A stretch of 64,000 nt of DNA from Desulfarculaceae bacterium (lineage in GTDB: Bacteria; Desulfobacterota; Desulfarculia; Desulfarculales; Desulfarculaceae): the NCBI GenBank assembly GCA_020444545.1, contig JAHLKT010000003.1:62001-126000 (forward strand), given 5' to 3'. Below are positions 6,489 through 26,447 of the stretch, piece after piece. Positions within the stretch are counted from its first letter, which is position 1. Each line of letters opens with the position of its first letter. The position numbers and the translations under genes are program-made. Under the pieces are notes generated by a model. It was given only the letters and a program-made list of their open reading frames with translations. It ran no database searches and had not been told where the DNA came from.

Positions 6489-6915
6489 GGCTGGCCCGGC
6501 CCAGGGACGCGAGGGCCGCGCGCAGCTCGGGGTCTTGAATGTGGGCCAGCCCGGCCTCCATCTCGGCCTCTTCGCCGGGCTCCAGCTCGGGCAGGGGCGG
6601 CGGGGGCGGCTTGGGCGGCGGCGGGGCGGGGGCCTTGACCAGCTTGAGGCTGGCCACCGCGAAACCGGCCCCGCGCAGGCGTTCGCACAGCTCCGGGGCC
6701 AGCATGGTCAGCTCCTGCACCCAGGCCGCGCCGCTGACCGCCACCACCAGCACCCCGCCCTGCTCCAGGGCCACGGGCAGGGCCTTCTTGGCGATGCCCG
6801 GCCCCACGGCCTCGCGCCAGGCGGCCAAAAGCTCTGGCGCGGGCAGGCGCGAGGCCAAGGCCCCGGGCAGGGCCCCGCCCAACAGATCTCTTATGCTCAC
6901 CGGATCGCGCACCAT
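6460..6915 (-). CDS. DUF721 (DciA-like) protein
   Basis: This protein of about 151 residues has the DUF721 core: an initial helix SIRDLLGGAL, then LLAAWREAVGPGIAKKALP, then the strand-rich GGVLVVAVSGAAWVQELTML. Family members include DciA, which helps load the replicative helicase, and shorter proteins of unknown role. A proline-rich linker (PPPPKPPPPPLP) leads to an acidic and then basic C-terminus. The start at 6915 is preferred because the domain begins immediately; an ATG at 6939 (MLAGYTGAM) with upstream CGGAGA is the alternative. Confidence 0.75.
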   Translation of the reverse strand: MVRDPVSIRDLLGGALPGALASRLPAPELLAAWREAVGPGIAKKALPVALEQGGVLVVAVSGAAWVQELTMLAPELCERLRGAGFAVASLKLVKAPAPPPPKPPPPPLPELEPGEEAEMEAGLAHIQDPELRAALASLGRASLRARKAPRK

Positions 6916-7014
6916 GGCCCCAGTATAGCCCGCGAGCATGACCCTTGTCTCCGGGACGGACAAAAGGCTAGACTTAATGCCTACTGCCCCGCCACTCATG
7001 CTGGGGGATTGCCG

Positions 7015-8304
7015 ATGCCCGCCAACCCTCGCCCCTCGCCCTATCGCTGGCTGGTCTTCGCGGTGCTGGCCGCGGCCTACCTTCTGGTCTACTTCCACCG
7101 CACCTGCCCGGCGGTGGTGGCCTCGGACCTGATGCGCGACCTTGAGGCCGGGGCCACGGCGGTGGGCCTCTTAGGCGCGGCCTACTTCTACCCCTACGCC
7201 ATCATGCAGATACCAGCCGGGCTGCTCTCGGACTCCTGGGGCCCGCGCAAGACCATTACCGTGTTCTTCGTGCTGGCGGGCATCGGCTCCATCTGGCTGG
7301 GCCTGGCCGGCTCCATCGGCCCGGCCATCGCCGCCCGCACCCTGGTGGGGCTGGGGGTGGCCATGGTCTTCGTACCCACCATGAAGGTGCTCACCCACTG
7401 GTTCAAGCGGAGCGAGTTCGCGGGCATGATGGGCATCCTCATGGCCTTAGGGGGAGTGGGGGCCTACAGCGCGGCCCAGCCCCTGGCTTGGCTCAGCGTG
7501 GCCCTGGGCTGGCGGGGCAGCTTCATCCTCATCGGCGCGGTCACCCTGGCCCTGGCCGTAATCATCTGGGTGGTGGTGCGCAACCGGCCCGAGGACAAGG
7601 GCCTGCCCCCCATTATCGACGCGGCCGACGGCCCCAGCGGCGTGGCGGCCATTCCCCTGGGCAAGGGCATGAAGATGGTCCTGGGCAACGGCCGTTTCTG
7701 GGCGGTGGCCATCTGGTTCTTCTTCAGCCTGGGGGTGTTCTTCTCCATGGGCGGCCTGTGGGGCGGGCCCTATCTCATGCAGGTCTACGGCCTCACCAAG
7801 CCCCAGGCCGGGGCCCTGCTGTCCATGATCGCGGTGGGCATGATCATCGGCAGCCCGCTCATCTCCTGGTTCTCGGACAAGGTGATGGTCTCGCGCAAAA
7901 AGGTGCTCATCATCGCCACCACCCTGCACCTGCTGCTGCTCCTGGTGCTCTGGCTGGAGCCCGCGGGCATGAACCTGGGCCTGTTGTATTTGTGGTTCTT
8001 CCTGTTCAGCGTGTGCTCCAGCGCCATCGTGGTGGTGGCTTTCACCACCACCAAGGAGCTGTTCCCCGTGGCCATCGCGGGCACCTCCACCGGCCTGGTC
8101 AATTTGTTCCCCTTCTTCGGCGGGGCGGTGATGCAGCCGGTGAGCGGCTGGCTGCTCAGCCTGCAAGGCGGCCCCCAGGGCCCCTACACCCCTGCCATGT
8201 ACGGCAACCTTTTCCTGTTCTGGGCGGCCTGCGTGGTCGTGGCCCTGGTCGCGGTGTGCCTGGCCCAGGACACCCTGCCCGGACGCAAAGGAAAAGCAGC
8301 GTGA
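7015..8304 (+). CDS. MFS transporter
   Basis: This 429-residue protein has 12 predicted membrane helices and the MFS loop motif DSWGPRKTITVFF between helices 2 and 3 (near residue 75). The second half repeats a related motif, SWFSDKVMVSRKKV. GGGGG at 7003-7007 precedes the ATG at 7015. It resembles organic-anion MFS carriers, but no substrate can be assigned. The stop overlaps the thioesterase GTG by GTGA, so the two genes form an operon. Confidence 0.88.
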   Translation: MPANPRPSPYRWLVFAVLAAAYLLVYFHRTCPAVVASDLMRDLEAGATAVGLLGAAYFYPYAIMQIPAGLLSDSWGPRKTITVFFVLAGIGSIWLGLAGSIGPAIAARTLVGLGVAMVFVPTMKVLTHWFKRSEFAGMMGILMALGGVGAYSAAQPLAWLSVALGWRGSFILIGAVTLALAVIIWVVVRNRPEDKGLPPIIDAADGPSGVAAIPLGKGMKMVLGNGRFWAVAIWFFFSLGVFFSMGGLWGGPYLMQVYGLTKPQAGALLSMIAVGMIIGSPLISWFSDKVMVSRKKVLIIATTLHLLLLLVLWLEPAGMNLGLLYLWFFLFSVCSSAIVVVAFTTTKELFPVAIAGTSTGLVNLFPFFGGAVMQPVSGWLLSLQGGPQGPYTPAMYGNLFLFWAACVVVALVAVCLAQDTLPGRKGKAA

Positions 8305-8726
8305 GTGAACTCAAGGAGCGTCTGGCCTACGCCAGTGAGGCCGTGGGCGGCGACCCCTGGGCCCGTTTTCTGGGCCTCGCCGTGGAGAGCCTGGGCGAGG
8401 CTCAAGCCACCATCAGCTTCGTGCCCGGCCCGGACCACCTCAACGCAGTGGGCCGGGTGCACGGCTCGGTGCTCTACGCCCTGGCCGACCAGGCCATGGC
8501 CGTGGCGGCCAACACCTTGGAACGCCCCGCCCTGGTGGTGGAGGCACGCATCAGCTTCGTGGGCAAGGCCGCGCCCGGCGAAAAGCTCTCGGCCAGCGCC
8601 CGCGCCCTGGACCTGGGCCGCACCCTCAGCCTGTGGGAGGTGAGCATCACCAACCCGGAGGGCCGTCTGGTGGCCCTGGCCGGGGGACGGGGCTACCACG
8701 CCGCGCCCAAGCCTATCCCCGCCTAG
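8301..8726 (+). CDS. PaaI-type hotdog acyl-CoA thioesterase
   Basis: This 141-residue single hotdog domain has the family signature HLNAVGRVHGSVLYALADQA (about residues 45-65), in which the conserved His, Gly and Asp line the active site. The second half has the expected strand pattern VEARISFVGKAAPGEKL. It starts with GTG at 8301, overlapping the upstream stop. It probably hydrolyses an acyl- or aryl-CoA ester in the cytoplasm. Pairing with an MFS carrier suggests release of a CoA-bound product for export (inference). Confidence 0.85.
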   Translation: MSELKERLAYASEAVGGDPWARFLGLAVESLGEAQATISFVPGPDHLNAVGRVHGSVLYALADQAMAVAANTLERPALVVEARISFVGKAAPGEKLSASARALDLGRTLSLWEVSITNPEGRLVALAGGRGYHAAPKPIPA

Positions 8727-8819
8727 TCCCCGGCCCATTCCTGTGTTAAATTTCATAGCTCATTACCCGGCGATTTGCCCCGCGCCACCCAATTGCCTCG
8801 CAACAAGGATGCAGCTCGG

Positions 8820-9728
8820 ATGAGATCACGTGACATCATCATGATCGTGGTGGCCTTTGCCGGCATCTCCTGCGGGGTGTTTTTGCCCGGGCCTTCCTCC
8901 TGGGTCACCCCCTTCACGATCTACATGATGATGGGCGTGCTCTACCTTTCCTTCCTGCGCATCGACTTCGGGGTGCTGACCCGCATCAAGGGGGTGGACC
9001 TGGGCGAGCTGGCCCTGTGGAGCCTGCTCAAGCTGGTGCTCATGCCGGTGATCTTGTGGGCCCTCGCCGCCTGGCTGGCCCCGGGCTGGGCCCTGCCGGT
9101 GCTCTTGTTGGCCGGCATCTCCGCCGGGGTGACCGCGCCTTTCTTCTGCCAGATGCTGGGCGGCGACCAGGCGCGCTCCCTGCAACTAACGGTGATCACC
9201 TCGGTGCTGGTGCCCTTCACCCTGCCCGCCCTGGTTTGGCTGCTGGTCGGGCAAGAGATCAACCTGCCCCTGGTGGCCATGGGCCGCATGTTGGCCCTGG
9301 TCATCTTCGTGCCCCTGGTACTGGCCTGGCTCACCATGCGTCTGGCCCCCGGCGTGCTGGCCCCCCTGGGGCGCATCCAGTTCCCCCTGACCAACACCCT
9401 TTTCTTTTTGATCAACCTGGGGGTCTTCGCGCCTTACGCCAGCTTTTTCTTTGAGCAATCCGGCCAGGTGGTCACCGCGGTGGTGCTCTCATGCCTACTG
9501 GCCGGGGCCTACTTCGGCGCGGTCTGGGCCCTGGGCCGCCTCAGCCATCAGCGCCTGGACCATTTCTCCTGCGGCACGGGCATGGTGTTCATTAACAACG
9601 TGCTGGTGGTGGTGGTGGCGGCCAAGTTCTTCGGCCCCCGCGCCCCGCTCTTGGCCGCGGCCTATATGCTGCCCTTTTTCCTGATGCTACTGCCCTACCG
9701 CCTGCTCAAGCCCAAGGGAGGCAACTAG
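8820..9728 (+). CDS. Bile acid:sodium symporter (BASS/SBF) family transporter
   Basis: This 302-residue protein has about nine to ten hydrophobic helices. The segments LLAGISAGVTAPFFCQMLGGD and CGTGMVFINNVLVVVVAAKFF resemble the two crossover motifs of the BASS fold, which transports organic anions with Na+. I chose the ATG at 8820, preceded by AAGGA at 8805-8809, over the longer frame from 8775. The substrate is unknown. Confidence 0.7.
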   Translation: MRSRDIIMIVVAFAGISCGVFLPGPSSWVTPFTIYMMMGVLYLSFLRIDFGVLTRIKGVDLGELALWSLLKLVLMPVILWALAAWLAPGWALPVLLLAGISAGVTAPFFCQMLGGDQARSLQLTVITSVLVPFTLPALVWLLVGQEINLPLVAMGRMLALVIFVPLVLAWLTMRLAPGVLAPLGRIQFPLTNTLFFLINLGVFAPYASFFFEQSGQVVTAVVLSCLLAGAYFGAVWALGRLSHQRLDHFSCGTGMVFINNVLVVVVAAKFFGPRAPLLAAAYMLPFFLMLLPYRLLKPKGGN

Positions 9729-9731
9729 GCC

Positions 9732-10847
9732 TTGCGCTGGTTCCTGCCCATATTCTTCTCGGTCTACACCGGGCTGCACGTAATCTTCTACCGCTGCGCG
9801 CGGCACCTGCTGCCCCCGGGGCGGGGCCCGCGCCTCATCGCCTGGGCCTGGCTGGGCCTGATGATCCTGGGCCCCCTGCTCACCGTACTCTCCTATGCCT
9901 GGGGCTACCCCAAGGCCTCCGGGGTCATCGGCACGGTGGCCTACTGGTGGATGGCCTATCTGCTCATGAGCCTGCTCTGCCTGCTGGGCATGGACCTGCT
10001 CAGGCTCATGGCCTGGCCCTTCTCGCGCGGTCCCTGGGCATGGCGGCGGCCCGTGGCCCTGGCCCTGGGCGCGGCCCTGATCCTCACCGCCTACGGCGGC
10101 TGGTCCGCCACTCAGGTGCGCCTCAAGGAGGTGACGATCGCCACCCCCAAGCTGCCCGCCGAGGTTCCCGCGCTACGCATCGCGCTCACCAGCGACCTGC
10201 ACCTGGGCCTGCCCGGCGGCGAGGCGCGCCTCAAGCGGGCCATCAAGCTCATCCAGGAGGCCAGGCCCGACCTGTGGCTGGACGCGGGCGACATGTGGGA
10301 CCGCCCGCTGCTGGACGCCCGCGAGCTCACCGGGCTTATGGCCAAGGTGCGCCCGCCCCTGGGCAAGTACGCCATCGGCGGCAACCACGAGAACTACGTG
10401 GGCCTGAGCACCTCCATGAGCCTGGACCGGGTGGCGGGCTTCGTGTTCCTGGCCAACCGGGGCCTGGCCGTGGGGCGCGCGCTCAACCTGGCCGGGGTGG
10501 TGGACACCCGCAAGCCCGACCCGGCCCGGGACGCCGCCGCCCTCAAGGGCCTGGACCCCGGCCGCTTCACCCTGTTCCTGCGCCACCGCCCGGACTTTGG
10601 CCCGGCCACGCGCGGCAAAATCGACCTCCAGGTCTCGGGCCACACCCACGGCGGCCAGGTCTGGCCCTTCCACTACCTGGTCAAGAACCTCTACCCCCGC
10701 TTTGCCGGGCTCTATGATCTGGGCCACGGCGCCTGGCAATACACCACCCGGGGCACCGGCCTTTGGGGTCCGCCCATACGCCTTTTCGCCCCGCCCGAGG
10801 TCACGCTGATCACTCTGAAGCGCGTCCCGCCCTCTCCCCCCCGCTGA
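9732..10847 (+). CDS. Membrane-anchored calcineurin-like metallophosphoesterase
   Basis: This 371-residue protein has four N-terminal membrane helices (residues about 1-130) followed by a metallophosphoesterase domain. The motifs appear in order: LTSDLHLG (D and H), DAGDMWDRP, GGNHENY, and SGHTHGGQVWP. This matches the YkuE/YaeI-like group acting on lipid or nucleotide phosphates. The frame starts with TTG at 9732, only three bases after the upstream stop, implying translational coupling; no ATG fits in the N-terminal helix region. Confidence 0.85.
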   Translation: MRWFLPIFFSVYTGLHVIFYRCARHLLPPGRGPRLIAWAWLGLMILGPLLTVLSYAWGYPKASGVIGTVAYWWMAYLLMSLLCLLGMDLLRLMAWPFSRGPWAWRRPVALALGAALILTAYGGWSATQVRLKEVTIATPKLPAEVPALRIALTSDLHLGLPGGEARLKRAIKLIQEARPDLWLDAGDMWDRPLLDARELTGLMAKVRPPLGKYAIGGNHENYVGLSTSMSLDRVAGFVFLANRGLAVGRALNLAGVVDTRKPDPARDAAALKGLDPGRFTLFLRHRPDFGPATRGKIDLQVSGHTHGGQVWPFHYLVKNLYPRFAGLYDLGHGAWQYTTRGTGLWGPPIRLFAPPEVTLITLKRVPPSPPR

Positions 10848-10870
10848 CCCCCGGCCCCTTCCCAAGTCAC

Positions 10871-10897
10871 TTGACAAAACAGTCGCGCGCGTTATAT
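10871..10897 (+). promoter_or_regulatory. Sigma70-type promoter of merR operon
   Basis: TTGACA (10871-10876) is followed, 15 bp later, by TTATAT (10892-10897), or 16 bp later by TATATG. The short spacing is unusual for sigma70 but could be offset by the regulator. It lies directly in front of the palindromic operator and the MerR-type gene. Confidence 0.5.
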
Positions 10898-10910
10898 GAC
10901 GTTTACGTCA
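10897..10910. promoter_or_regulatory. Palindromic MerR-type operator TGACGTTTACGTCA
   Basis: The perfect inverted repeat TGACGT-TT-ACGTCA overlaps the -10 region, and a further ACGTCAT half follows at 10911-10917. The ACGT-spaced dyad resembles operators described for LiuR-type MerR regulators of acyl-CoA catabolism. It is probably the autoregulatory site of the following gene. Confidence 0.6.
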
Positions 10911-10952
10911 ACGTCATAATATGTTCCTTTGTGCCAACCAAGGAGCCCGCCC

Positions 10953-11339
10953 ATGTGGAGCATCGCCGAGCTGGCCGCCGAGCTGGAGATCAGCACCCGC
11001 ACCATCCGCTTTTACGAGGAAAAGGGCCTGATCTCTCCCCAGCGCACCCCGGGCAACCGGCGGGTGTACTCCAAGCGGGACCGGGCTCGGCTCAAGCTGA
11101 TCCTCCGGGGCAAGCGCTTCGGCTACTCCCTGGAGGAGATCGGCGAGATGATCGGCATGGGGGACGTGGACCTGGACGAGGCGGAACAGATCAAGCGCAG
11201 CCTGGCCTACGGCGACAAGAAGCTGGCCGAGATCCACCAGCGCATCGAAGAGCTGAAGATGTTGGCCCGGGACATCGAATCCGTGCGGGACAAGCTGCAA
11301 GACCGGTTGGGACAACTCAAGGAGGGGAAGCAGTCATGA
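10953..11339 (+). CDS. MerR family regulator of acyl-CoA genes
   Basis: This 128-residue protein has an N-terminal MerR winged helix (MWSIAELAAELEISTRTIRF, then YEEKGLISPQRTPGNRRVYS) and a C-terminal dimerisation coiled coil (about residues 75-125). No metal-binding cysteines are present, so it is not a metal sensor. I use the ATG at 10953 with AGGAG at 10941-10945. The stop overlaps the acyl-CoA synthetase start by ATGA. Together with the operator upstream, it probably senses an acyl-CoA and controls its own operon, as LiuR-like proteins do. Confidence 0.88.
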   Translation: MWSIAELAAELEISTRTIRFYEEKGLISPQRTPGNRRVYSKRDRARLKLILRGKRFGYSLEEIGEMIGMGDVDLDEAEQIKRSLAYGDKKLAEIHQRIEELKMLARDIESVRDKLQDRLGQLKEGKQS

Positions 11340-14990: not shown

Positions 14991-15022
14991 AAAAAAAGGA
15001 GGAGCCCCGAAGGACTCCTCCT
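14991..15022 (-). terminator. Intrinsic terminator of hdr-met operon
   Basis: On the minus strand, the stem AGGAGGAG/CTCCTCCT with a loop of 10 bases is followed by seven T residues (complement of 14991-14997). It lies 30 bp after the metF stop. Confidence 0.85.
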
Positions 15023-15052
15023 CATACAGGCTTTATCTATGCGGCTTGCGGC

Positions 15053-15979
15053 TTAGTCCACCACCGGCCGGGGCAGCAGGCCCGCGCCTTCGATGATCTC
15101 CTTGGCGCGGTGCTCCCACTCGATAGCCATGACGTGCACCCCGGCCACGCCTTCCATTTCCTTGAACTCCTCGATCTGCTCGATGGCCATCTTGATGCCC
15201 TCGGCGGCCTGGTCTTTCTTGTCCACGCCCTTGAGCCGCTTGATGATGTCGGCCGGCACGTCCATGCCCGGCACGAACTTGGCCATGTAGTTGGCCATAC
15301 CCACCGACTTCATGGGGGTCACGCCGGCCAGGATGTAGCACTTCTCGTGCAGGCCCTTGTCCACGGCCCGTTTCATGAACTCGCGGAACTTGTCCATGTT
15401 GTAGATGCACTGGGTCTGCACGAAGTCGGCCCCGGCCGCCACCTTCTTGGCCAGGCGGGTCACGCGGAACTCGAAGGGATCGGCAAAGGGGTTGGAGGCC
15501 GCCCCGATGAATATCTCGGGCGAGCCGTCCAGGTCCTTGTCGTTGAGGAATTTCTTCTCGTCGCGCATCTTGGCGAAGGCGGCCAGAAGCTGCACCGAGT
15601 CCAGGTCGTAGACGTTCTTGGATTCCGGATGCGAGCCGAAGCGCTGATGGTCGCCGGACAGGCACAGGACGTTCTTGATCCCCAGGGCGGTGGCCCCCAG
15701 GATGTCGGCCATCAGGGCCAGGCGGTTGCGGTCGCGGCAGACCATCTGATAGTTGGGCTCCAGGCCCTCGTCGATGAGGATCTTGCAGGCGGCCCAGGAG
15801 GCCATGCGCACCACCGCGGTCTGGTTGTCGGTGATGTTGACCGACTCCACGATGCCCTTGAGGTAGCCGGCCTTGTGGCGCACTTCCTCGGCGTTGTTGC
15901 CCATGGGCGGACCAAGCTCGCCGGTGACCGCGAAATGCCCGGCGGACAGAACTTTCTCCAGATTGCTGCCGGCTTTCAT
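15053..15979 (-). CDS. metF: Methylenetetrahydrofolate reductase
   Basis: This 308-residue TIM-barrel flavoprotein reduces methylene-THF to methyl-THF, or runs in reverse. Family motifs include FAVTGELGPP near the start (the Glu is catalytic), LCLSGDH (about residue 114), FIGAASNPF (about 158) and FVQTQCIYNMDKF (about 188). The ATG at 15979 follows GGAGGA by a normal distance and overlaps metV by ATGA. The next genes upstream are metV, mvhD and hdrA. This is the arrangement of the Hdr-linked MetFV type, so electrons probably come from or go to the Hdr module and not directly to NADH. Confidence 0.92.
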   Translation of the reverse strand: MKAGSNLEKVLSAGHFAVTGELGPPMGNNAEEVRHKAGYLKGIVESVNITDNQTAVVRMASWAACKILIDEGLEPNYQMVCRDRNRLALMADILGATALGIKNVLCLSGDHQRFGSHPESKNVYDLDSVQLLAAFAKMRDEKKFLNDKDLDGSPEIFIGAASNPFADPFEFRVTRLAKKVAAGADFVQTQCIYNMDKFREFMKRAVDKGLHEKCYILAGVTPMKSVGMANYMAKFVPGMDVPADIIKRLKGVDKKDQAAEGIKMAIEQIEEFKEMEGVAGVHVMAIEWEHRAKEIIEGAGLLPRPVVD

Positions 15980-16644
15980 TGCTTCAGATCCTCCCTGACC
16001 CGCTTGCGCGGGCCGCCGTCGCGCGCGGTGAGCCAGTTCTTGTTGGGCCACACCTGCTCCAGCTCATCCAGCCGGCCCATGGCGTCCATCTTCTTGACGA
16101 TCTGGTCCCACACGCAGGGAACCTCGGGGCTGATCTCGCAGTTGCCGCTGGCCGAGCCGCCGCAGGGCCCGTTCATCAGGCTCTTGGAGCACCGGGCGAT
16201 GGGGCAGAGGCCGCCGAAGTTGTGCACCAGGCAGTTGCCGCAGCTTTGGCAACGCTCGGCCCAGACCCCGTGTTCCAGGGCCCCGCCGATGAAAGTGGTG
16301 TTGATGCCCGGGAACACCGGCACCTTGGGATAGCGCTCGGCCATGAACTGGGGCCCCACCCCGCAGGCGATGGAGACGATGGCGTCGTAATCCTCGGCCA
16401 CCTCGGCCAGCTCCTCGATGTACTCGGGGTCGCACTGGCGCTCCAGGGTTTTTTCCTCCACCGTGGGAGGCTGGCCGTTCTTCTTGCGGGCGATGCGCAA
16501 GGCGGTGGCCAGAATGCCCACCTCCTTTTCGCCGCCCACATTGCAGACGGTCACGCACCCCCGGCAGCCCAACACCAGGACCTTGTCGCGGCCCTCGATC
16601 ATGGCCAGAATCTCTTCCAGAGGCTTGCTGTCACCTACGATCAT
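15976..16644 (-). CDS. metV: MetV-type zinc/iron-sulfur subunit of MTHF reductase
   Basis: This 222-residue cysteine-rich protein is of the MetV / methylene-THF reductase C-terminal type. Its N-terminal half has LGCRGCVTVCNVGG (about residues 26-39). Its C-terminal half has CQSCGNCL, then GLCPIARCSKSLMNGPCGG, then CEISPEVPC, giving many cluster or zinc ligands. In Moorella MetV is required for MetF activity. It probably links MetF to the MvhD/HdrA proteins encoded upstream. It is translationally coupled to metF. Confidence 0.9.
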   Translation of the reverse strand: MIVGDSKPLEEILAMIEGRDKVLVLGCRGCVTVCNVGGEKEVGILATALRIARKKNGQPPTVEEKTLERQCDPEYIEELAEVAEDYDAIVSIACGVGPQFMAERYPKVPVFPGINTTFIGGALEHGVWAERCQSCGNCLVHNFGGLCPIARCSKSLMNGPCGGSASGNCEISPEVPCVWDQIVKKMDAMGRLDELEQVWPNKNWLTARDGGPRKRVREDLKQ

Positions 16645-16683
16645 CGTGACTTCCCTTCCTGGTCAACATACCCGCGGGGTCTG

Positions 16684-17115
16684 TCAGGCCGCCTTGGCCG
16701 TATTCAACGGGCTGGGCCCCAGCTCCGCGATGCTCTCGGTGAACTCGTTGGCCACCTGGGCGAAGCGCGGTCCCTCGGCCGAACTCATGTTGAACATCTC
16801 GATCCGCTCGGGCTCAATACCCAGAGCCCCCAGAACCTTTTTGACATACTCCACCTTGCGGCGGGCCTTGAAGTTGCCGGTGAGGAAGTGGCAATCGCCT
16901 TCCATGCAACCGGCCACGTAGACGCCGTCGGCGCCGTCTTCAAAGGCCTTGAGCAGATGCAGGATGTCCACCCGCCCCGAGCAGGGCAGCTGGATGACGC
17001 GCACGTTGGTGGGGTACTGCAATCTCATCGAACCTGCCAGGTCCGCGGCCGAGTAAGCTCAGTACTGGCAGCAGAAGGCTACGATTTTGGGCTCGAAGCT
17101 TGCGCTCAACTTCAT
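16684..17115 (-). CDS. mvhD: MvhD-type hydrogenase iron-sulfur subunit, selenoprotein
   Basis: This is a 143-residue protein if the in-frame TGA at 17059-17061 is read as selenocysteine at residue 19. From the ATG at 17115 it reads KIVAFCCQY-U-AYSAAD, which aligns with the CCxxC motif of MvhD/VhuD. Downstream motifs continue unbroken: LPCSGRVD, AGCMEGDCHF and FNMSSAEGP. MvhD transfers electrons between partner enzymes and HdrA through a [2Fe-2S] cluster. AGGAGG lies directly against the ATG, so TTG at codon 3 is an alternative start. A conventional ORF caller would begin at Met30 (17028) and miss the redox motif. Confidence 0.9.
17030..17044 (-). promoter_or_regulatory. SECIS-like hairpin in mvhD
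   Basis: On the minus strand, 14 bases after the TGA codon, GGACCT pairs with AGGTTC (one G-U) around the loop GGC. A small stem with an apical G about 15-35 nt after UGA fits bacterial selenocysteine insertion elements. This supports recoding at residue 19. Confidence 0.65.
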
Positions 17116-17185
17116 CCTCCTCTTTGGGGCCTCCGCTTGGGGCGGCCGGGGTGGGCTCCGGCGGGCGGCCGGAACCCGCTGAACC

Positions 17186-20100
17186 TTAACCCATCGCCGC
17201 CCTTTCCTTGGCCAGGATCTGGGCGTCGGTGAAGTGTTGCAGGGTGATGGCCTTGCCGGGGCACTCCGCCGCGCAGGCGCCGCAGCCGTAGCACTGGGCC
17301 ACCTCTATCTTGGCCGCGCCGTCCACGATCTTGGGCACCCCGTAGGGGCAGGTGCGCACGCAGGTCAGGCACACCGAGCACTTGTTGGGATCCACCGTGG
17401 CCACCACTCCGCCCACGCGGATGAGGTTCTTGGCCAACACGGTTAGCGCCCGGCCGGCGGCCGCGTTGGCCTGGGCGATGGCCTCGTCGATGGGCTTGGG
17501 GTAATGGGCCAGGCCCGCCTGGTAGATGCCCTCGGTGGCGAAGTCCACCGGCCGCAGCTTGGCGTGGGCCTCCAGGAAGAAGCCCTCGGCGTTCAGCGGG
17601 GTCTTCATGGCCTCGGCCAGCTGGTGCACCTCGTTGGGCAGGATGGCCGCGGCCAGCACCAGGCGGTCCACCTCGAAGCTGATGGGCACGCCCAGCACGT
17701 GGTCCGTGGCGGTGACGGCGATCTTGCCGCTCTGGCCCACCGCGGCCTGGGGCTTGTCCTCCAGCTTGTAGCGGAAGAAGAGCACCCCCGCCTCGCGAGC
17801 CTTCTTGTACAGGTCCTCGCGCACCCCGTAGGTGCGGATGTCGCGGTAGAGGATATAGACCTGGGCCTCGGGGTTGGCCTCCTTGACCTTGATGGCGCTT
17901 TCCACCGAGTGGGTGCAGCACAGGCGGGAGCAGTAGGGCCGCTCCGGCTCGCGGGAGCCCACGCACTGGATGAAGGCCACCGAGCTCCAGTCCTTGGGCG
18001 CGGCGGGGTTGCCCCGGAGCTCCATGTCCAGCTCCAGGGAGGTGAGCACCGCGTCGCTCTCGCCGTAGAGGTACTCGGTGGGCCTTAACTCATGGCCGCC
18101 GGTAGCCAGCACGATGACCCCGTGCTCCACGTTGGTCTCGGCCCCGCCCTCGGCGGTGATGGTGCTCACGTAGTTGCCCACGAAGCCCTTGAACCCGGTG
18201 AGTTCGCTATTGAGGTGCAGGGTGATGTTCTTATTCTCATTGACCAGGCTGACCAGGTCCTCCAGGTAAGGCGCCACGTCTTCGCCCTTCCAGGAGTTGA
18301 GCAAATAGCGGGCGTTGCCGCCCAGCTCGCCGGTCTTTTCCACCAAATGCACCGGATAGCCGGCCTTGCCCAGGTTGAGCGCGGCCACCATGCCGGCCAC
18401 ACCGCCGCCCACCACCACGCCGGCCTTGTTCAGCGGCAGCTCCACCTGGTGCAGCGGCTCGATGAGCGCGGCCTTGGCCACGGCCATGCGCACCAGGTCC
18501 TTGGCCTTGGCGGTGGCCTTCTCGGGCTCGCCCTGGTGCACCCAGGAGTCCTGGTCGCGGATGTTGGCCATCTCGAAGAGGTACTTGTTCAGGCCCGCCT
18601 CGCGGATCGTCTCCTGGAACAAGGGCTCGTGGGTGCGGGGGCTGCAGGAAGCCACCACCACCCGGTTGAGGTTGTTCTCCTCGATCTTGTCCTTGATCTT
18701 GTTCTGGGTGTCCTGCGAGCAGGTGAACAGGTTGTCGTCCACGAACTCCACGAAGGGCAAGGTGGCGGCATACTCGCGCACCGCGGGCACGTCCACGATG
18801 CCCCCGATGTTGATGCCGCAGTTGCACACGAACACGCCCACCCTGGGCTGCTCCCCGCTGATGTCCTTCTCGATGGGGTAGGTCAGCTCCTTGGTCAGGG
18901 TGCCCCGGCTCTCGGAGATGTCCAGGCTGGCCACGCAGGCCGCCGCGCTGGCTTCCATCACCGCCTGGGGGATGTCCTTGGGGCCCGCGAAGGCGCCGCA
19001 GGCGAAGATGCCCTCGCGGCTGGTGCCCACCGGGGCGAAGGATGAGGTCTCGGTGAAGTTGTAGCCGGTGAGGTCGATGCCCAGGCGATGGGCGGTCTCG
19101 ATGGCCTCGGGTCCGGTCTGGAGGCCCACCGAGAGGACCACCATGTCGAACTCCTCCTCCATGGCCTCGCCGTTCTCGGTAACGTACTCGATGCGCAGGC
19201 GGTCGCCCTCCACCGGGTCCACGGTGTGCACCCGGGAGCGGATGAAGCGCACCCCCTTCTCGTCCTCGGCCCGGTTGTAGTACTTCTCGAAGTCCTTGCC
19301 GTAGGTGCGCATGTCCATGAAGAAGATGGTGGCGTCCAGCTCCTCGGAGGCGTGCTCCTTGGCGATCACCGCCTCCTTGATGGCGTACATGCAGCACACC
19401 GCCGAGCAATAGCCATTGTCGCAGTGGTTGATGTCGCGGCTGCCCACGCACTGGAGCCAGGCGATCTTCTTGGGCTCCACCCCGTCGCTGGGGCGCTGGA
19501 GGTGGCCCTGGTAGGGGCCCGAGGCGCTCAGGATGCGCTCGAACTCCATGGCCGAGACCACGTTGGGATGCCCGGCGTAGGAGTAGGTGTCGAACAGGTT
19601 GGGGTCGAAGGGATCGAACCCAGGCGCCAGGATCACGCTGCCCACGTTGAGGGTCATCTCGGTGGGCTGCTGGTCGTGGGCCGGGGCCTTGGCCTTGCAG
19701 GCTTCCACGCACTGCAAGCACTCGCAGCACACCCCGCAGTTCAGGCAGCGGTCGCCCTCGGACTGGGCCTGCTCGGCCTTGAGGCCCAGCTCGAACTCCT
19801 TGTAATCGTGCTTGCGCTCCTCGCCGCCGCGCATCTCCATGTGCGCCCGGGGAGCCAGGTCGATGTCCAAGGGGATGGGGTTGAACTCGCGCTCGCCCTC
19901 GGGCCTGAGCTCGGGCTTCACGCGGCCCTCGGCCAGGTCCTGGCCTTCGAACTGGCGCAACATGCTGCGCGCCGCCTCGCGGCCGGCGGCCACCGCGCCG
20001 ATGGCGATCCAGGGGCCGGTGACCACGTCGCCGCCCGCGTACACGCCTTCCAGGTTGGTGGCGTTGGTGGTGGGGTCGGCGGCGATGGTGCCGCGCGGGC

Positions 20101-21613
20101 TCAGCTCCAGGCCGTGGTCCTCGCCCAGCCAGGAGAGGTCGGTGCGCTGGCCGATGGCGGTGATAATCAGGTCGGCGTCCATGGGGGTGGTGTGCCCCTC
20201 GTCGAACTCGGGGGCGAAGCGGCCCTCCTCGTTGAACACCCGGGTGCACTTCTTGAGCACCAGGCCCACGGCCTTGCCGCCCTCGGCCTTGACCTCCATC
20301 ACGCCGCGGCGGTGCACGAACTTGACGCCCTCTTCGGTGGCCTCGCTGATCTCCCAAGGGCTGGCCGGGCACTCCTCTTCGGACTCCAGCATGACCATGG
20401 TCACGTCGCTGGCGCCCTGGCGGATGGCGGTGCGGGCCGCGTCCACGGCCACGTTGCCGCCGCCCACCACGATGACCTTGTCGCCTTGAGCGGTCTCGTT
20501 GCCCAGGCTCACGTCCTGGAGGTAGTCCAGGGCGGCCACCACCTGCTCGCTGTCCTCGCCGGGCGCGCCCAGCTTGAAGCTGGCCGGAGCGCCCACGCCC
20601 AGGAACACCGCGTCGTAGTCGTCGCGCAGGTTCTGGAAGGTGGTGTCCGTGCCAATGGGGCTGTTGAGCTTGATCTCCACGCCCATGCCCTTGATCATGT
20701 CCACCTCGGCCTGCAAGGTCTCCATGGGCAGGCGGTAGGAGGGCACGCCCACGGCCAGCGCGCCGCCGGCCACGGGCAGGGCCTCGTAGATCACCGACTT
20801 AACGCCCGCGCGGGCCAGATGGTAGGCGCAGGACAACCCGGCCGGGCCGGCACCCACGATGGCCACCTTCTCCGAGCGCGGCTCGCACTCGGGCTGGGCG
20901 ATGTTGGTGATGCCCACCTCGTCGGCCACGAAGCGCTTGATGTCGCGGATGGCGATGGCCTCGTCCACGTCCATGCGGCGGCAGGACTCCTCGCAGGGAT
21001 GGGGGCAGATGCGGCCGATGGTGCCCGGCAGGGGCAGGTCCTTCATGATGATGTTCAAGCTCTCGGCGAAGTTGCCGGTCTTGGCCATCTGCACGTAGCC
21101 CTGCACGTTGAGGTTGGCCGGGCAGGCCACCAGACAAGGGGCGCGGTCCATCTTGGTGATGGAATAGGCGTTGGGGAAGGCCTGGGCATAGCGCTTGAAG
21201 GTCGCCTTGCGCTCACTCAGCCCCTGGTCGAACTCGTTGGGCACCGAGACCGGGCAGGCCTCGATGCAGTCGCCGCAGGCGGTGCAGGCGTCCATGTCCA
21301 CGTAGCGGGGCTCCTGATGCACCTCCACCGAGAAGTCGCCCGCCTCGCCGGAGATGGATTGCACCTCGGCCTGGGTGATGATTTCGATGTTCAGATGGCG
21401 CCCGCACTCCACCAACTTGGGGGAGATGATGCACATGGCGCAGTCATTGGTGGGGAAGGTCTTGTCAAGCTGGGCCATCCTTCCGCCGATGGCCGTGGTC
21501 TTTTCAACCAGGTACACGTAGTATCCGGCGTTGGCCAAGTCCAAAGAAGCCTGCACCCCGGCGATGCCGGCGCCGACCACCATTACCGCTCCGACCTTGC
21601 TGCTTTGCGCCAT
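17186..21613 (-). CDS. hdrA: HdrA-GltD-HdrA fusion flavoprotein
   Basis: This 1475-residue cytoplasmic electron-transfer protein has these modules in order. (1) HdrA N-part: FAD loop MVVGAGIAGVQ (about 11-21), FPTNDCAMCII, and the cluster motif CTACGDCIEACP (about 110-121). (2) An inserted GltD/NfnB-like unit (about 155-640): CLVACPANLNV, CPHPCEESC, FAD loop VAIVGAGPAGLS (250), NAD(P)H loop VIVVGGGNVAVDAA (380) and GVYAGGDVVTGP, then CLNCGVCCECLQC. (3) The rest of HdrA from about 655, including CVGSRDINHC and CCMYAIKE. (4) A second HdrA module with GVFVCNCGINIGG and FAD loop VVVGGGVAGMVAAL, ending in ferredoxin motifs CSVCLTCVRTCP and CYGCGACAAECP. Start ATG 21613 follows AAGGGA. It heads the operon with mvhD, metV and metF. 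Confidence 0.93.
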   Translation of the reverse strand: MAQSSKVGAVMVVGAGIAGVQASLDLANAGYYVYLVEKTTAIGGRMAQLDKTFPTNDCAMCIISPKLVECGRHLNIEIITQAEVQSISGEAGDFSVEVHQEPRYVDMDACTACGDCIEACPVSVPNEFDQGLSERKATFKRYAQAFPNAYSITKMDRAPCLVACPANLNVQGYVQMAKTGNFAESLNIIMKDLPLPGTIGRICPHPCEESCRRMDVDEAIAIRDIKRFVADEVGITNIAQPECEPRSEKVAIVGAGPAGLSCAYHLARAGVKSVIYEALPVAGGALAVGVPSYRLPMETLQAEVDMIKGMGVEIKLNSPIGTDTTFQNLRDDYDAVFLGVGAPASFKLGAPGEDSEQVVAALDYLQDVSLGNETAQGDKVIVVGGGNVAVDAARTAIRQGASDVTMVMLESEEECPASPWEISEATEEGVKFVHRRGVMEVKAEGGKAVGLVLKKCTRVFNEEGRFAPEFDEGHTTPMDADLIITAIGQRTDLSWLGEDHGLELSPRGTIAADPTTNATNLEGVYAGGDVVTGPWIAIGAVAAGREAARSMLRQFEGQDLAEGRVKPELRPEGEREFNPIPLDIDLAPRAHMEMRGGEERKHDYKEFELGLKAEQAQSEGDRCLNCGVCCECLQCVEACKAKAPAHDQQPTEMTLNVGSVILAPGFDPFDPNLFDTYSYAGHPNVVSAMEFERILSASGPYQGHLQRPSDGVEPKKIAWLQCVGSRDINHCDNGYCSAVCCMYAIKEAVIAKEHASEELDATIFFMDMRTYGKDFEKYYNRAEDEKGVRFIRSRVHTVDPVEGDRLRIEYVTENGEAMEEEFDMVVLSVGLQTGPEAIETAHRLGIDLTGYNFTETSSFAPVGTSREGIFACGAFAGPKDIPQAVMEASAAACVASLDISESRGTLTKELTYPIEKDISGEQPRVGVFVCNCGINIGGIVDVPAVREYAATLPFVEFVDDNLFTCSQDTQNKIKDKIEENNLNRVVVASCSPRTHEPLFQETIREAGLNKYLFEMANIRDQDSWVHQGEPEKATAKAKDLVRMAVAKAALIEPLHQVELPLNKAGVVVGGGVAGMVAALNLGKAGYPVHLVEKTGELGGNARYLLNSWKGEDVAPYLEDLVSLVNENKNITLHLNSELTGFKGFVGNYVSTITAEGGAETNVEHGVIVLATGGHELRPTEYLYGESDAVLTSLELDMELRGNPAAPKDWSSVAFIQCVGSREPERPYCSRLCCTHSVESAIKVKEANPEAQVYILYRDIRTYGVREDLYKKAREAGVLFFRYKLEDKPQAAVGQSGKIAVTATDHVLGVPISFEVDRLVLAAAILPNEVHQLAEAMKTPLNAEGFFLEAHAKLRPVDFATEGIYQAGLAHYPKPIDEAIAQANAAAGRALTVLAKNLIRVGGVVATVDPNKCSVCLTCVRTCPYGVPKIVDGAAKIEVAQCYGCGACAAECPGKAITLQHFTDAQILAKERAAMG

Positions 21614-21754: not shown

Positions 21755-21783
21755 ACTATAGACAAAATAGGAGTCTGTGGCAA
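21755..21783 (-). promoter_or_regulatory. Sigma70-type promoter of hdrA operon
   Basis: On the minus strand TTGCCA (complement of 21778-21783) and TATAGT (complement of 21755-21760) are separated by 17 bp, in an AT-rich region about 140 bp before the hdrA ATG. The 21614-21979 interval holds no gene. It also contains the direct repeat CGATGGGCA at 21747-21755 and 21847-21855. Confidence 0.65.
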
Positions 21784-21979: not shown

Positions 21980-23752
21980 CTAGAACACGCCCTTGACCTT
22001 GCCGGTCTCGACGTCGACGTCCACGCGGCGGTAGGCCGGGTTGGAGCCGGTGCCGGGCATCAGGCTGATGTTGCCCGCCACGGGCACCACGAAGCCGGCG
22101 CCGCCGTAGGTGAGAATGTCGCGCACGAACAGGCGCCAGTCCTTGGGCACGCCCTTGAGGGCCGGGTTGTCCGACAGCGACAGGTGGGTCTTGACCATGC
22201 AGGTGCCCAGCTTGGACAGCTCGGCGTCGGCCTCGATCTTCTTGGCCTTGGCCAGGGCGGCGTCGGAGTAGTCCACGCCGTCGGCACCGTAGACCTCCTT
22301 GGCGATGAGGCTGATGCGCTCGCGCAGCGGAGTCTCCAGCTCGTAGAGCAGCTTGAACTCGTTGGGCTCGTTGCACGCGTCGATGACCGCGTCCGCGAAC
22401 TCCAGAGCGCCTTCGCCGCCGTGCTCCCAGTGACGCGACAGGGCCACGCGGGCGCCGGCCGCCTCGCCCATCTCACGCACCTTGGCGATCTCGGCGTCGG
22501 TGTCGGTGTAGAAGGCGTTGATGCACACCACCGGGTTGATGCCGGCCTTGCGCACGGTGTTGATGTGGTGGACCAAGTTCTCGCAGCCCTTCTCGACCCA
22601 CTCGACGTTCTCGCCCTTGTACTCTTCGGGCATGGGCTTGCCGGGCACCGGGATGGGAGCGCCGCCGTGGCACTTCAGGGCCCGGATGGTGGCCACGACC
22701 ACCGCGCAGTTGGGCTTCAGGCCGCTGAAGCGGCACTTCAGGTTCCAGAACTTCTCAAAGCCGATGTCCGCGCCGAAGCCCGACTCGGTCACGTGGTAGT
22801 CGCCCAGCTTCAGGGCCACGCGGTCGGCGATGATGGAGGACTGGCCGATGGCGATGTTGGCGAAGGGACCGGCGTGCACGAACACCGGCTGGCCTTCCAG
22901 GGACTGCAACAGGTTGGGGTTCAGGGCCTCGACCATCCAGGCGGTCATGGCGCCGTCGACCTGCAGATCCTTGGTGGTGATGGGCACGCCCTGCTTGTTG
23001 TAGGCCACCACGATCTTGCCCATGCGCTCGCGCATGTCGGCCAGGTCCTTGGCCACGGCCAGAATGGCCATAACCTCGGAGGAAACCGCGATGCCGAACT
23101 TGGACTGCATGGTGAAGCCGTCGGTGCGGCCGCCCAGGCCCATGACGATATTGCGCAGGCCCTGGCAGCAGAAGTCGATGATCCAGCCCATTTCCACGTT
23201 AGTGGGGTCGATGTCCAGGCGCTCCATGTTGGACAGGCGCATGAGCTGCTCGTCGGTGTAGTTGCGCTCGTGCTGCATACGGCTGTTCAGCGCGACCATG
23301 GCCAGGTTGTGGCTGTTCATGATGGCGTTGATGTCGCCGGTGAGGCCCAGGGAGAACGGGGTCAAGGGGATGCACTGGGCCAAGCCGCCGCCGGCCGCGG
23401 AACCCTTGATGTTCATGGTGGGGCCGCCGGAGGGCTGACGGATGGCCGCGGTCACGTTGACCTTGCGCTGGCCCAGGCCCTCGACCAGACCCATGGAGGA
23501 GGTGGACTTGCCCTCTCCCAGGGGGGTGGGGGTGATGGCGGTGACGTCAATGTACTTGCCGTCGGGGCGATCTTTGAGCCTATCGAGCAGCTTTTTGAAG
23601 TCCACCTTGGCCACGTAGTGACCATGCAGGAGCAGTTCCTCCTCGGTTATCCCCAGCTCGCTGGCGATATCCTTGATGGGCTTCATGTACTCTTCGGCTG
23701 CCTCAGCGATTACGTAATCAGGATTTTCTCTGGGATCTGGCAGCTTGGGCAT
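21980..23752 (-). CDS. fhs: Formate--tetrahydrofolate ligase
   Basis: This 590-residue enzyme forms 10-formyl-THF from formate, ATP and THF, the entry step of the methyl branch of the Wood-Ljungdahl pathway (or its ATP-yielding reverse). The P-loop [16 protein letters not shown] (about residues 75-90) and the family motif [20 protein letters not shown] (about 104-123) are intact. The C-terminus retains [20 protein letters not shown]. Start ATG 23752 is preceded by AGGAGG. It stands alone, with its own terminator, between the hdr-met operon and nfnAB. Confidence 0.97.
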
Positions 23753-24176: not shown

Positions 24177-25028
24177 ATGTACAAGATCCTTTCCAAGCGG
24201 GAGCTGGCCCAGGGCACTGTGGTCGAAAACGAGATCGAGGCTCCCCGCATCGCGGCCAAGGCCCAGCCCGGCCAGTTCGTCATCCTCAGGGTCAACGAGA
24301 CCGGCGAGCGCATTCCGCTCACCATGGCCGACACCGACCCCCGGCGGGGCACCATCACCATCATCTACCAGGTGGTGGGCAAGACCACCGCTCTGCTCAA
24401 GAGCCTGGCGGTGATGGACTCCATCATGGACATCGCCGGGCCCCTGGGCACCCCGACGCCCATCGAGAAAAAGGGCACCATCATCTGCGTGGGCGGCGGC
24501 ACCGGCGTGGCCGTGCTGCACCCCATCACCCGGGGCTTCCATGAGGCGGGCAACAAGGTCATCGGCATCATCGGGGCGCGCACCAAGGACTTGCTCATCA
24601 TGGAAGACAAGATGACCAAGGCCACGGACGAGCTTTACGTCTGCACCGACGACGGCTCCTACGGCCACCACGGCTTTGTGACCGACGTCTTGCGCGAGCA
24701 GCTGACCAAGCTGGGCTCCGAGGTCAAGGAGGCGGTGTGCATCGGGCCGGTGCCCATGATGAAGTTCTGTTGCAAGGTCACCGAGGAGTTCGGGGTGCCC
24801 AGCATGGTCAGCCTGAACGCCATCATGGTGGACGGCACGGGCATGTGCGGCTGTTGCCGGGTGCAGGTGGGCGGCGAGACCAAGTTCGCCTGCGTGGACG
24901 GCCCGGAGTTCGACGGCCACAAGGTGGATTTCGAGGGGCTTTCCAAGCGCCTGACCGCCTACATGCCTCAGGAGAAGGAGGCCATGGGCCTCTATGAAAA
25001 GAAATGCTCCTGCGGCAAGCAGGGTTAA
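24177..25028 (+). CDS. nfnA: NfnA-like ferredoxin-NADP reductase subunit
   Basis: This 283-residue protein of the dihydroorotate dehydrogenase electron-transfer type has an FAD-binding barrel (VENEIEAPRIAAKAQPGQFV), a nucleotide-binding loop IICVGGGTGVAVLHP (about residues 101-115) and the [2Fe-2S] motif DGTGMCGCCRV with a further Cys in FACVDGPEF (about 221-245). It is the small subunit of NfnAB, which couples NADPH oxidation to NAD and ferredoxin reduction or the reverse. GGGGAGAG precedes the ATG at 24177. nfnB follows after 15 bp. Confidence 0.9.
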   Translation: MYKILSKRELAQGTVVENEIEAPRIAAKAQPGQFVILRVNETGERIPLTMADTDPRRGTITIIYQVVGKTTALLKSLAVMDSIMDIAGPLGTPTPIEKKGTIICVGGGTGVAVLHPITRGFHEAGNKVIGIIGARTKDLLIMEDKMTKATDELYVCTDDGSYGHHGFVTDVLREQLTKLGSEVKEAVCIGPVPMMKFCCKVTEEFGVPSMVSLNAIMVDGTGMCGCCRVQVGGETKFACVDGPEFDGHKVDFEGLSKRLTAYMPQEKEAMGLYEKKCSCGKQG

Positions 25029-25043
25029 GGGGGGAGAAGCATC

Positions 25044-26447
25044 ATGGCCGATAAAAAGGAAAAGACTCCCCGCACTCCCATGCCCGAGCAGAAGCCCGAG
25101 GTTCGCCGCCGCAACTTCGAGGAGGTGCCCCTGGGCTACCAGGCCGAGATGGCCCAGATCGAGGCCAGCCGTTGCTTGCAGTGCAAGAAGCCTGCTTGCG
25201 TGCAGGGCTGCCCGGTGAACGTAAACATCCCAGCCTTCATCCACCACATCGCCGAGGGCAACTTCGCCAAAGCGGTGTTCCAGCTCTGGGAGGACAACTC
25301 CCTGCCCGCGGTCTGCGGCCGGGTGTGCCCCCAGGAGAACCAGTGCGAAGGCAACTGCATCGTGGGCAAGAAGGACAAGCCCGTGGCCATCGGCAACCTG
25401 GAGCGCTTCGCCGCGGACTGGGCCCGGTCCGAAAAGGACCTGCCCCTGCCTCCGGTGGCCCCCAAGACCGGCAAGAAGGTGGCCGTGGTGGGATCGGGCC
25501 CCGGCAGCCTCACAGTGGCCGGCGACCTGATCCGCAAGGGCCACGAGGTCACGGTCTACGAGGCCTTCCACAAGCCCGGCGGCGTGCTGGTCTACGGCAT
25601 TCCCCAGTTCCGGCTGCCCAAGGAGATCGTGGCCTCGGAGGTCAACTTCCTGGAGCGCCTGGGCGTTAAAGTCGAGTGCAACGTGGTGGTGGGCTCCACC
25701 ATCACCGTGGACGAGCTGCTCACCGAAGAGGGCTTTGACGCGGTGTACCTGGGCGTGGGCGCGGGCCTGCCCCGCTTCGTGGGGGTGCCCGGCGAAAACC
25801 TCATCGGGGTCTACAGCGCCAACGAGTACCTCACCCGGGCCAACCTGATGAAGGGCTACCTCTTCCCCGAGTACGACACCCCGCTGATCAAGGGCGACCA
25901 CGTGTGCGTGTTCGGCGGAGGCAACGTGGCCATGGACAGCCTGCGCACCGCCATGCGCATGGGCTGCGACGACGTGAAATGCGTGTACCGCCGCTCCGAG
26001 GAGGAGCTGCCCGCCCGCGGCGAGGAGATCCACCACGCCAAGGACGAGGGCATCCAGTTCTTCCTGCTGCACTCGCCGCTGCGCTTCATTGGCGACGAGG
26101 ACGACCGGCTCAAGGCGGTGGAGCTCCAGGAGATGCAGCTCGGCGAGCCCGACGAGAGCGGCCGCCGGCGGCCCGAGCCCATTCCCGGCTCGGTGAAAAC
26201 CATCGACTGCGACCTGGCCATCATCGCCATCGGCTCCGGGGCCAACCCGCTCATCACCCGCACCACGCCGGGGCTGGAGGTGAACAAGTGGGGCTACATC
26301 GAGGCCGATGACGACGGCAAGACCAAGAAGGCCAAGGTCTGGGCCGGCGGCGACATCGTCACCGGCGCGGCCACGGTGATCAAGGCCGCCGGGGCCGGGC
26401 GCACCGCGGCCAACAGCATGCACCGCTACCTGACCTGGGGCTGGTAG
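25044..26447 (+). CDS. nfnB: NfnB-like NADPH/ferredoxin oxidoreductase (GltD-type) subunit
   Basis: This 467-residue flavoprotein has the N-terminal cluster region RCLQCKKPACVQGCPVNVNI (about residues 44-63) and CGRVCPQENQCEGNC, then FAD loop VAVVGSGPGSLTVAG (about 147), NADP loop VCVFGGGNVAMDSLRTA (about 288) and VWAGGDIVTGAATVI near the end. Next to NfnA this is the large subunit of the electron-bifurcating NfnAB transhydrogenase. Its neighbourhood with fhs and hdr-met fits ferredoxin/NAD(P)H balancing in the folate pathway. It resembles the module inserted in the HdrA fusion. Confidence 0.92.
   Translation: MADKKEKTPRTPMPEQKPEVRRRNFEEVPLGYQAEMAQIEASRCLQCKKPACVQGCPVNVNIPAFIHHIAEGNFAKAVFQLWEDNSLPAVCGRVCPQENQCEGNCIVGKKDKPVAIGNLERFAADWARSEKDLPLPPVAPKTGKKVAVVGSGPGSLTVAGDLIRKGHEVTVYEAFHKPGGVLVYGIPQFRLPKEIVASEVNFLERLGVKVECNVVVGSTITVDELLTEEGFDAVYLGVGAGLPRFVGVPGENLIGVYSANEYLTRANLMKGYLFPEYDTPLIKGDHVCVFGGGNVAMDSLRTAMRMGCDDVKCVYRRSEEELPARGEEIHHAKDEGIQFFLLHSPLRFIGDEDDRLKAVELQEMQLGEPDESGRRRPEPIPGSVKTIDCDLAIIAIGSGANPLITRTTPGLEVNKWGYIEADDDGKTKKAKVWAGGDIVTGAATVIKAAGAGRTAANSMHRYLTWGW

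Follow-up and report, generated by a model that had tools for sequence, protein, structure and literature searches.

How does a methylene-tetrahydrofolate (methylene-THF) reductase of the Hdr type work when its operon has no genes for HdrB and HdrC? The question is raised by a four-gene operon in a Desulfarculaceae bacterium (GenBank assembly GCA_020444545.1, contig JAHLKT010000003.1, positions 62,001 to 126,000 of the forward strand), a stretch of 64,000 nucleotides that we call the window and in whose numbering coordinates are given. The operon encodes an HdrA fusion with a GltD/NfnB-like NAD(P)H-binding cassette built into it, together with MvhD (FlpD), MetV and MetF. We read it as a variant of the Hdr-type (type IV) methylene-THF reductase (MTHFR) without an HdrBC of its own, linked to NAD(P)H and acting in the methyl branch of the Wood–Ljungdahl pathway, where it would most likely oxidize methyl-THF during complete oxidation of acetyl-CoA. 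We hold this reading tentatively, at a little under an even chance; that the proteins form a physical complex, that it runs in this direction and that it uses ferredoxin are parts of it that we infer. The operon shares with type IV enzymes the encoding of MetV and MetF together with HdrA and MvhD. It is filed as a variant, and not as a full member, because hdrB and hdrC, whose presence in the cluster is a defining feature of the type, are missing from it. Published work is cited throughout from passages of the papers named.

The four genes are closely packed on the minus strand and read from 21613 to 15053, as called from open reading frames and Pfam/NCBIfam profiles. The hdrA fusion (17186–21613) encodes 1,475 residues from an ATG, or 1,481 from an alternative TTG start at 21631. 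It is followed by mvhD (16684–17115; 143 residues; PF02662, 176.9 bits), metV (15976–16644; 222 residues; PF12225, 120.5 bits) and metF (15053–15979; 308 residues; PF02219, 132.9 bits), with operon-like spacing of 70 and 39 nucleotides and then a 4-nucleotide overlap. An earlier sequence-only reading of the window had described one operon of an HdrA-GltD-HdrA fusion, MvhD, MetV and MetF, and its coordinates and strand hold. MetV has no relative by sequence in the copy of the PDB that was searched, which returned three weak unrelated matches only. In a fold search for MetV, the best Foldseek E-value was 6.3e-3, and the highest VIA Z score was 9.2, for a Dph2 chain and not far above the stated background.

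Profile matches along the fusion give the order HdrA segments, GltD/NfnB (residues ~145–556), HdrA again and a C-terminal 4Fe-4S dicluster. Two modules can be distinguished. Module 1 (residues ~1–910) is a TrxR/flavin adenine dinucleotide (FAD) unit with an inserted ferredoxin domain, itself interrupted by GltD, and module 2 (residues ~915–1475) consists of an HdrA N-domain, a second TrxR domain and a C-terminal ferredoxin domain. Because residues 9–154 and 627–843 align to the flavin domain of solved HdrA chains, the GltD cassette is placed within the inserted ferredoxin domain of HdrA; with its Fer4_20 iron–sulfur (Fe-S) domain it spans 19946–21181 of the minus strand, within approximate limits. 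Residues 915–1474 align to a second HdrA, in which the N-domain and the C-terminal ferredoxin domain are kept and the inserted ferredoxin domain is absent. An AlphaFold model of residues 1–912 has a mean pLDDT of 79, low at the junctions of the insert. Residues 153–648 of this model match the large subunits of NfnABC/StnABC (Z 48.4 for 9bov and 47.0 for 8oh5), which supports the earlier assignment of an NAD(P)H-binding GltD/NfnB module to HdrA, and residues 5–902 match HdrA chains (Z 37.7).

We compared the window with 20 loci from its own genome and family, 80 named MetV loci (the best 80 of at least 573 confirmed stretches) and 60 fetched fusion loci that ranked high among the matches listed over 297 genomes. 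Of 109 fusion rows found, 3 partial ones (L079, L067 and L098) and 5 near-duplicates were dropped, leaving 101 distinct fusion loci. Since the loci were chosen by similarity to the window, the fractions that follow are not population frequencies. Fusion homologues at E ≤ 1e-150 occur in 211 of the 297 genomes drawn from the phylum and are mostly full length among the matches listed. A gene for formate–THF ligase (fhs) is linked to the fusion in 16 of the loci, the window included.

As markers of bifurcating flavins we took E356 and K409 of Methanothermococcus HdrA, mapped onto the fusion by alignment; a pair of this kind is used in print to recognize such flavins (PMC9430772). The equivalents in the first half are E692 and K746, which are invariant in 101 of 101 fusion loci. 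At the second site the equivalents are D1196 and E1238, so that the bifurcation signature is lost from module 2 and the Moorella-type pattern of E and K in both TrxR domains is absent; the pair at this site is D/E in all 16 fhs-linked loci. One bifurcation-type flavin (E692/K746) is thus predicted to remain in the fusion. Fe-S-type cysteines are also well kept, with 37 of the 46 cysteines of the protein present in every one of the 101 loci. Judged from alignment and model, this HdrA would combine an NAD(P)H site of GltD fold with a bifurcation-type flavin, as type IV MTHFRs do. The presence of one such flavin beside the NAD(P)H cassette, and of a second half without the signature, suggests an asymmetric pair of HdrA units in a single chain.

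Which nucleotide the cassette prefers is indicated in two directions by the second GltD Rossmann motif. Where the NfnB encoded at 25044–26447 reads YRR, the fusion reads MLE (hdrA residues 408–416, MLESEEECP), a replacement that we take to favour NAD. The end of this motif alternates between YRR and CLE or MLE across fusion loci, perhaps in line with a preference for NADP or NAD. The motif itself reads GGGNVA; under a criterion cited in PMC12054007, this GXGXXA form would point to NADP.

The mvhD gene contains an in-frame TGA at 17061–17059 (residue 19, in the context FCCQY-U-AYSAAD), and read as a plain open reading frame it encodes only 114 residues. Among 98 MvhD proteins adjoining fusion genes, this position is TGA in 48 and Cys in 50 (39 assigned by pattern and 11 by eye); it is TGA in all 15 fhs-linked loci that have MvhD. 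The genome encodes SelB (398 bits, with the cut-off at 242) and a tRNA for selenocysteine (Sec; 73 bits), which ARAGORN also calls as tRNA-Sec with anticodon tca, with weaker matches at other tRNA-like places. With a TGA at a Cys position, the Sec machinery in the genome and exchange of TGA and Cys in homologues, the codon probably encodes selenocysteine. A search for a SECIS element after the TGA gave only a small hairpin, with z-scores from −0.06 to 1.35, and five weak matches in Rfam, every one of them below the gathering threshold and to families other than SECIS. MvhD proteins with Sec have been described before, from sulfate reducers among others (PMC2702500, PMC5109826, PMC13188914). 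The sequence-only reading had overlooked this codon, as well as the single-copy fhs gene upstream and the other three MetV operons of the genome.

The absence of HdrB and HdrC from the operon, which that reading had asserted, is confirmed: the 64-kb window contains no HdrB-type CCG pattern, and none of the 39 PF02754 (CCG) matches in the genome lies within it. HdrBC might instead be supplied in trans, by the HdrCB encoded at C5, by an orphan mvhD-hdrCB-like pair on C1 or by an HdrC/HdrB pair with a hydrophobic start and no HdrA, perhaps with a link to menaquinone as proposed for Thermacetogenium phaeum. We regard this as possible, if on balance doubtful. All 39 CCG matches were inspected, in 19 stretches of the genome. 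The orphan pair (L243, G000:C1:845000-862000, at 7288–9136) consists of an MvhD 59% identical to that of the window and a 445-residue HdrC/CCG protein, with no match to HdrA within 17 kb. At two further places (L237, 6191–8844; L238, 7152–9766) HdrC/HdrB-like pairs of 562/322 and 580/291 residues have no HdrA nearby. Of the stretches without an HdrA, L243 is the most informative; its pair and the two at L237 and L238 make a partner in trans possible, and at C5 HdrC and HdrB stand beside a second fusion, 50% identical to that of the window. In T. phaeum, too, hdrBC lie outside the metVF cluster, and a quinone link has been proposed (PMC6895022). However, a clear HdrA lies near the CCG gene in 7 of the 19 stretches (L038, L236, L239, L241, L242, L244 and L245), so many CCG genes have another HdrA to serve, and none of the 16 rows in the clade of the window, 12 of them with at least 2.5 kb of upstream sequence, has HdrBC beside the operon. 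The first protein of the L237 and L238 pairs has, by eye, the hydrophobic start mentioned above, and these pairs are possible quinone-side partners.

MetV lies downstream of the fusion in 70 of the 101 loci. To find HdrBC up to 3 kb away, we used the CCG pattern and tblastn queries with the proteins encoded at C5; 9 of the 70 have too little upstream sequence, and among the 61 that could be judged HdrBC were absent from 43, upstream in 17 and downstream in 1. The 43 include a locus whose one same-strand CCG pattern, 2.6 kb upstream, shows no similarity to HdrB or HdrC (L115), three with a CCG pattern on the opposite strand (L049, L109 and L117), three with one 4.2–4.3 kb downstream (L087, L090 and L103) and one with less than 3 kb of downstream sequence. 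Four of the 17 rest on a single CCG pattern together with an HdrC-like match. The lack of adjoining hdrBC, presented earlier as unusual, is therefore more common than not in this similarity-chosen sample, and T. phaeum is arranged likewise (PMC6895022); that it might be peculiar to this genome is rejected on the same count.

In a FastTree tree of the 101 rows the window falls in a starred clade of 16, the clade without adjoining HdrBC, of which 12 have at least 2.5 kb of upstream sequence. Another starred clade, of 29 rows, holds 13 of the 18 MetV loci with HdrBC, as well as the C5 fusion of the same genome. A single change of the HdrBC label across the history of the fusion was considered and rejected, as the tree needs 10 changes. 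Relatives of a second, divergent PF02219 protein (L036, 13924–14844; 43.5 bits) lie upstream of hdrA in a number of MetV-linked fusion loci, 15 of them lacking HdrBC and 6 having it.

It could also be that HdrA-MvhD and MetVF merely share an operon, with MetVF being a type II ferredoxin-linked enzyme and HdrA-MvhD serving another partner. This would account for the 24 of the 101 fusion loci that lack both a downstream MetV and an adjoining HdrBC, most of which still have MvhD, and it accords with the purification of Sporomusa ovata MetVF, a ferredoxin-dependent enzyme, without Hdr proteins (PMC9430772). Against it, distances between HdrA sequences correlate with the corresponding distances for MetV (r = 0.79) and for MetF (r = 0.66) in a set of 65 loci (permutation p = 0.001), a correlation of a kind that shared species history also gives. 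Gene order points the same way, because one relative (G001, L040 8755–14828) keeps hdrA, metV and metF behind fhs where mvhD has gone; elsewhere its genome has three short MvhD frames, none with a TGA. Moreover, published S. ovata pulldowns show HdrA interacting with both MetV and MetF, and MvhD interacting with HdrA and with MetF (PMC9430772). We consider mere co-occurrence in an operon very improbable, and a working unit of the fusion with MetVF is favoured by the set of genes, the conservation of cysteines and the correlation of HdrA and MetV distances.

How such a unit might operate can be sketched for the favoured reading, a NAD(P)H-linked type IV variant. MetF, with its flavin, and MetV, with its Fe-S centre, would exchange electrons with module 2 of the fusion, the putative Sec-MvhD acting as a relay between MetVF and module 2. 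Module 2 would conduct electrons to module 1, whose one bifurcation-type FAD (E692/K746) would in turn exchange them with NAD(P) through the GltD cassette. The first HdrA half would in this way merge or split electrons, and the second half would conduct them to MvhD and MetV. Because the potential of NAD+ (−320 mV) lies below that of methylene-/methyl-THF (−200 mV; PMC6895022), oxidation of methyl-THF would need a second, low-potential donor at the FAD of module 1, most simply ferredoxin reduced by CO dehydrogenase. The oxidative direction that the sequence-only reading had allowed for holds up as plausible. The ferredoxin step is also plausible, and it is the weakest part of the proposal; PMC6895022 puts the energy change of the ferredoxin-coupled reaction at −12 to +2 kJ/mol overall.

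In its strictest form the proposal becomes a self-contained, HdrBC-free electron-confurcating methylene-THF reductase of four proteins (three where mvhD is lacking), in which one bifurcating FAD would merge electrons from methyl-THF and reduced ferredoxin to form NAD(P)H. We consider this version unlikely. The closed four-protein complex proposed earlier is not sustained: HdrB/HdrC-type genes exist elsewhere in the genome, one set of them with mvhD and without hdrA, and one relative has no mvhD in its operon.

Several observations weigh against the favoured reading more generally. No ferredoxin coupling was seen in T. phaeum, and in Moorella it has been called disproven (PMC6895022, Keller et al.). 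The GltD insert interrupts the domain at which ferredoxin docks in canonical HdrA, as judged by alignment and by PMC12054007, a 2025 study of archaeal GltD-inserted HdrA in which the insert is proposed to block the ferredoxin site. Ferredoxin as the partner, named in the earlier reading, is therefore not supported, and the mechanism favoured for the fusion is itself a prediction. The genome holds HdrB/HdrC-type sets elsewhere, including the L243 set without HdrA. The absence of MetV downstream in 31 of the 101 fusion loci (3 of them with less than 2.5 kb of downstream sequence) indicates that the fusion has other partners, and the G001 operon shows that an mvhD relay is not strictly required. 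Finally, two family genomes at least 90% complete (G005 and G013) carry the operon, yet give no match to CdhC, the acetyl-CoA synthase.

For Hdr-type methylene-THF reductases, the literature still leaves the third redox partner unnamed (PMC13040438). It could be menaquinol or another carrier that is not ferredoxin, or there may be no bifurcation at all, the enzyme being a plain NADH-linked methyl-THF oxidoreductase pulled by removal of its product. Reduced menaquinone has been proposed as the co-reductant in a 2026 study of Moorella (PMC13040438), and both the possible blocking of ferredoxin by the insert (PMC12054007) and the second flavin site without a signature would fit. However, the E/K signature at the first flavin is invariant in all 101 loci, and none of the four operon proteins matches a membrane family in the Pfam/NCBIfam profile search, which included no transmembrane prediction. 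We judge these alternatives quite unlikely.

The setting of the operon is that of a sulfate reducer with acetyl-CoA synthase. The genome contains CdhC, dsrA (582 bits) and an AprBA-Qmo-HdrCB-like locus, the last recognized by reading the proteins. Of 20 family genomes, 14 have a match to CdhC; in the subset of 12 with completeness of 90% or more and contamination of 5% or less, G005, G013 and G018 have none, and G018 has no match to MetV either. Directly upstream of hdrA lies fhs (21980–23752, minus strand); the 4.38-Mb genome has no other PF01268 match. Divergent from fhs-hdrA are nfnA/nfnB-like transhydrogenase genes (24177–26447, plus strand). A divergent nfnA match is found in 12 of the 16 fhs-linked loci.

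Signals at the ends of the operon are uneven. The sequence-only reading had placed a promoter at one end and a terminator at the other, and the second of these stands: a strong-looking intrinsic terminator follows metF (14996–15023, minus strand; 12 pairs and a T run; −23.3 kcal/mol over a 51-nucleotide stretch). The sigma-70-like promoter candidate upstream of hdrA (21755–21783, minus strand) is weak, with 10 of 12 matches, and such sites are near chance (2 found against 0.9 expected). Terminator-like sites, as counts, do not exceed those in shuffles (7 found against 5.9 expected). A second one, of 13 pairs, lies between fhs and hdrA (21954–21924), so hdrA probably has a promoter of its own.

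The four MetV genes of the genome stand in four settings. Besides the window these are C1, with a MetF-like protein, an HdrA without GltD, MvhD, MetV and MetF; C2, with MvhD-like, MetV and MetF proteins; and C5, with HdrC, HdrB, the second fusion, MvhD, MetV and a MetF-like protein. At L037 (G000:C2:289500-309400, 3523–11185) the MvhD-like, MetV and MetF genes are followed by genes for a 974-residue glutamate-synthase-domain protein (PF01645, 360 bits) and an 882-residue GXGXG-domain protein, an arrangement that ties MetVF to a glutamate-synthase-like enzyme. L050 and L053 share this gene order by size and sequence start; the Pfam assignments are for L037 only. Further along the window, 43250–45259 encodes an MttB-superfamily methyltransferase (PF06253, 125 bits), whose reading frame is open with no stop codon read through, and then a corrinoid protein. 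Genes at 45671–49445 resemble, by eye, those of a 2-oxoacid:ferredoxin oxidoreductase, with a GltD-like subunit of 446 residues at 45671–47011.

The operon bears on the step of methyl-THF oxidation in acetate-oxidizing sulfate reducers. If HdrBC-free confurcation were true, it would allow these organisms to get past the −200 mV step, when running the Wood–Ljungdahl pathway in reverse, without a membrane partner. A version without adjoining HdrBC, kept in related sulfate reducers and with one bifurcation-type flavin, also offers a smaller system for asking which partner is used. The parts are individually known; their combination and its conservation are useful and not revolutionary. We found no description of an HdrBC-less fusion operon in Desulfobacterota in the titles, abstract openings and passages surveyed, which are no proof of absence and leave the figures of PMC2702500 outside.

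Among known systems, the StnC/NfnABC large subunits share the GltD and Fe-S cassette (43% identity to 9bov and 40% to 8oh5, the chains with the Z scores given above), whereas in Stn the cassette is part of a NuoG-like protein and feeds, instead of HdrA, a bifurcating module resembling HydBC (PMC10482914). In type III HdrA of methane-metabolizing archaea, GltD is likewise inserted into the inserted ferredoxin domain; the archaeal domain pattern is closest to a single type I HdrA, and MetF is not named in the text, with 0 occurrences (PMC12054007). HdrL of Desulfobacterium autotrophicum resembles the present fusion by description, not by sequence, in being an HdrA/glutamate-synthase fusion followed by mvhD. 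Several D. autotrophicum MvhD proteins contain Sec, as do HdrL1 and HdrL3, and HdrL1 is linked to dsr genes, with no link to metVF named in the passages (PMC2702500). The HdrA-(MvhD-like)-MetVF cluster of T. phaeum shares an hdrA adjoining metVF, with hdrBC elsewhere; it lies with CODH/ACS (carbon monoxide dehydrogenase/acetyl-CoA synthase) genes, and its HdrA is 31% identical to that of Moorella (PMC6895022). More widely, MetFV-MvhD genes often do not adjoin HdrABC (PMC6085437).

The MetFV-HdrABC-MvhD complex of Moorella was the comparison drawn in the sequence-only reading, and half of that comparison stands. The lack of hdrBC in the operon is a difference, as is the fhs gene upstream. A GltD module in HdrA is not, and its novelty is rejected, since Moorella HdrA has the same architecture, with a mass of 162.8 kDa, a numbering to 1487 (~1487 residues) and GltD in its N-terminal half (PMC9430772). 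The MvhD here has an in-frame TGA; the Moorella MvhD was outside the comparison. Moorella HdrA, which oxidizes NADH, has E/K pairs in both flavin domains and is reported to keep E1204/K1246 at the second site, where the fusion described here has D1196/E1238; S. ovata keeps one pair (PMC9430772). Both systems encode HdrA, MvhD, MetV and MetF together, and in both an HdrA of near-equal length carries GltD as an interruption of its first TrxR half, followed by a second HdrA half (PMC9430772).

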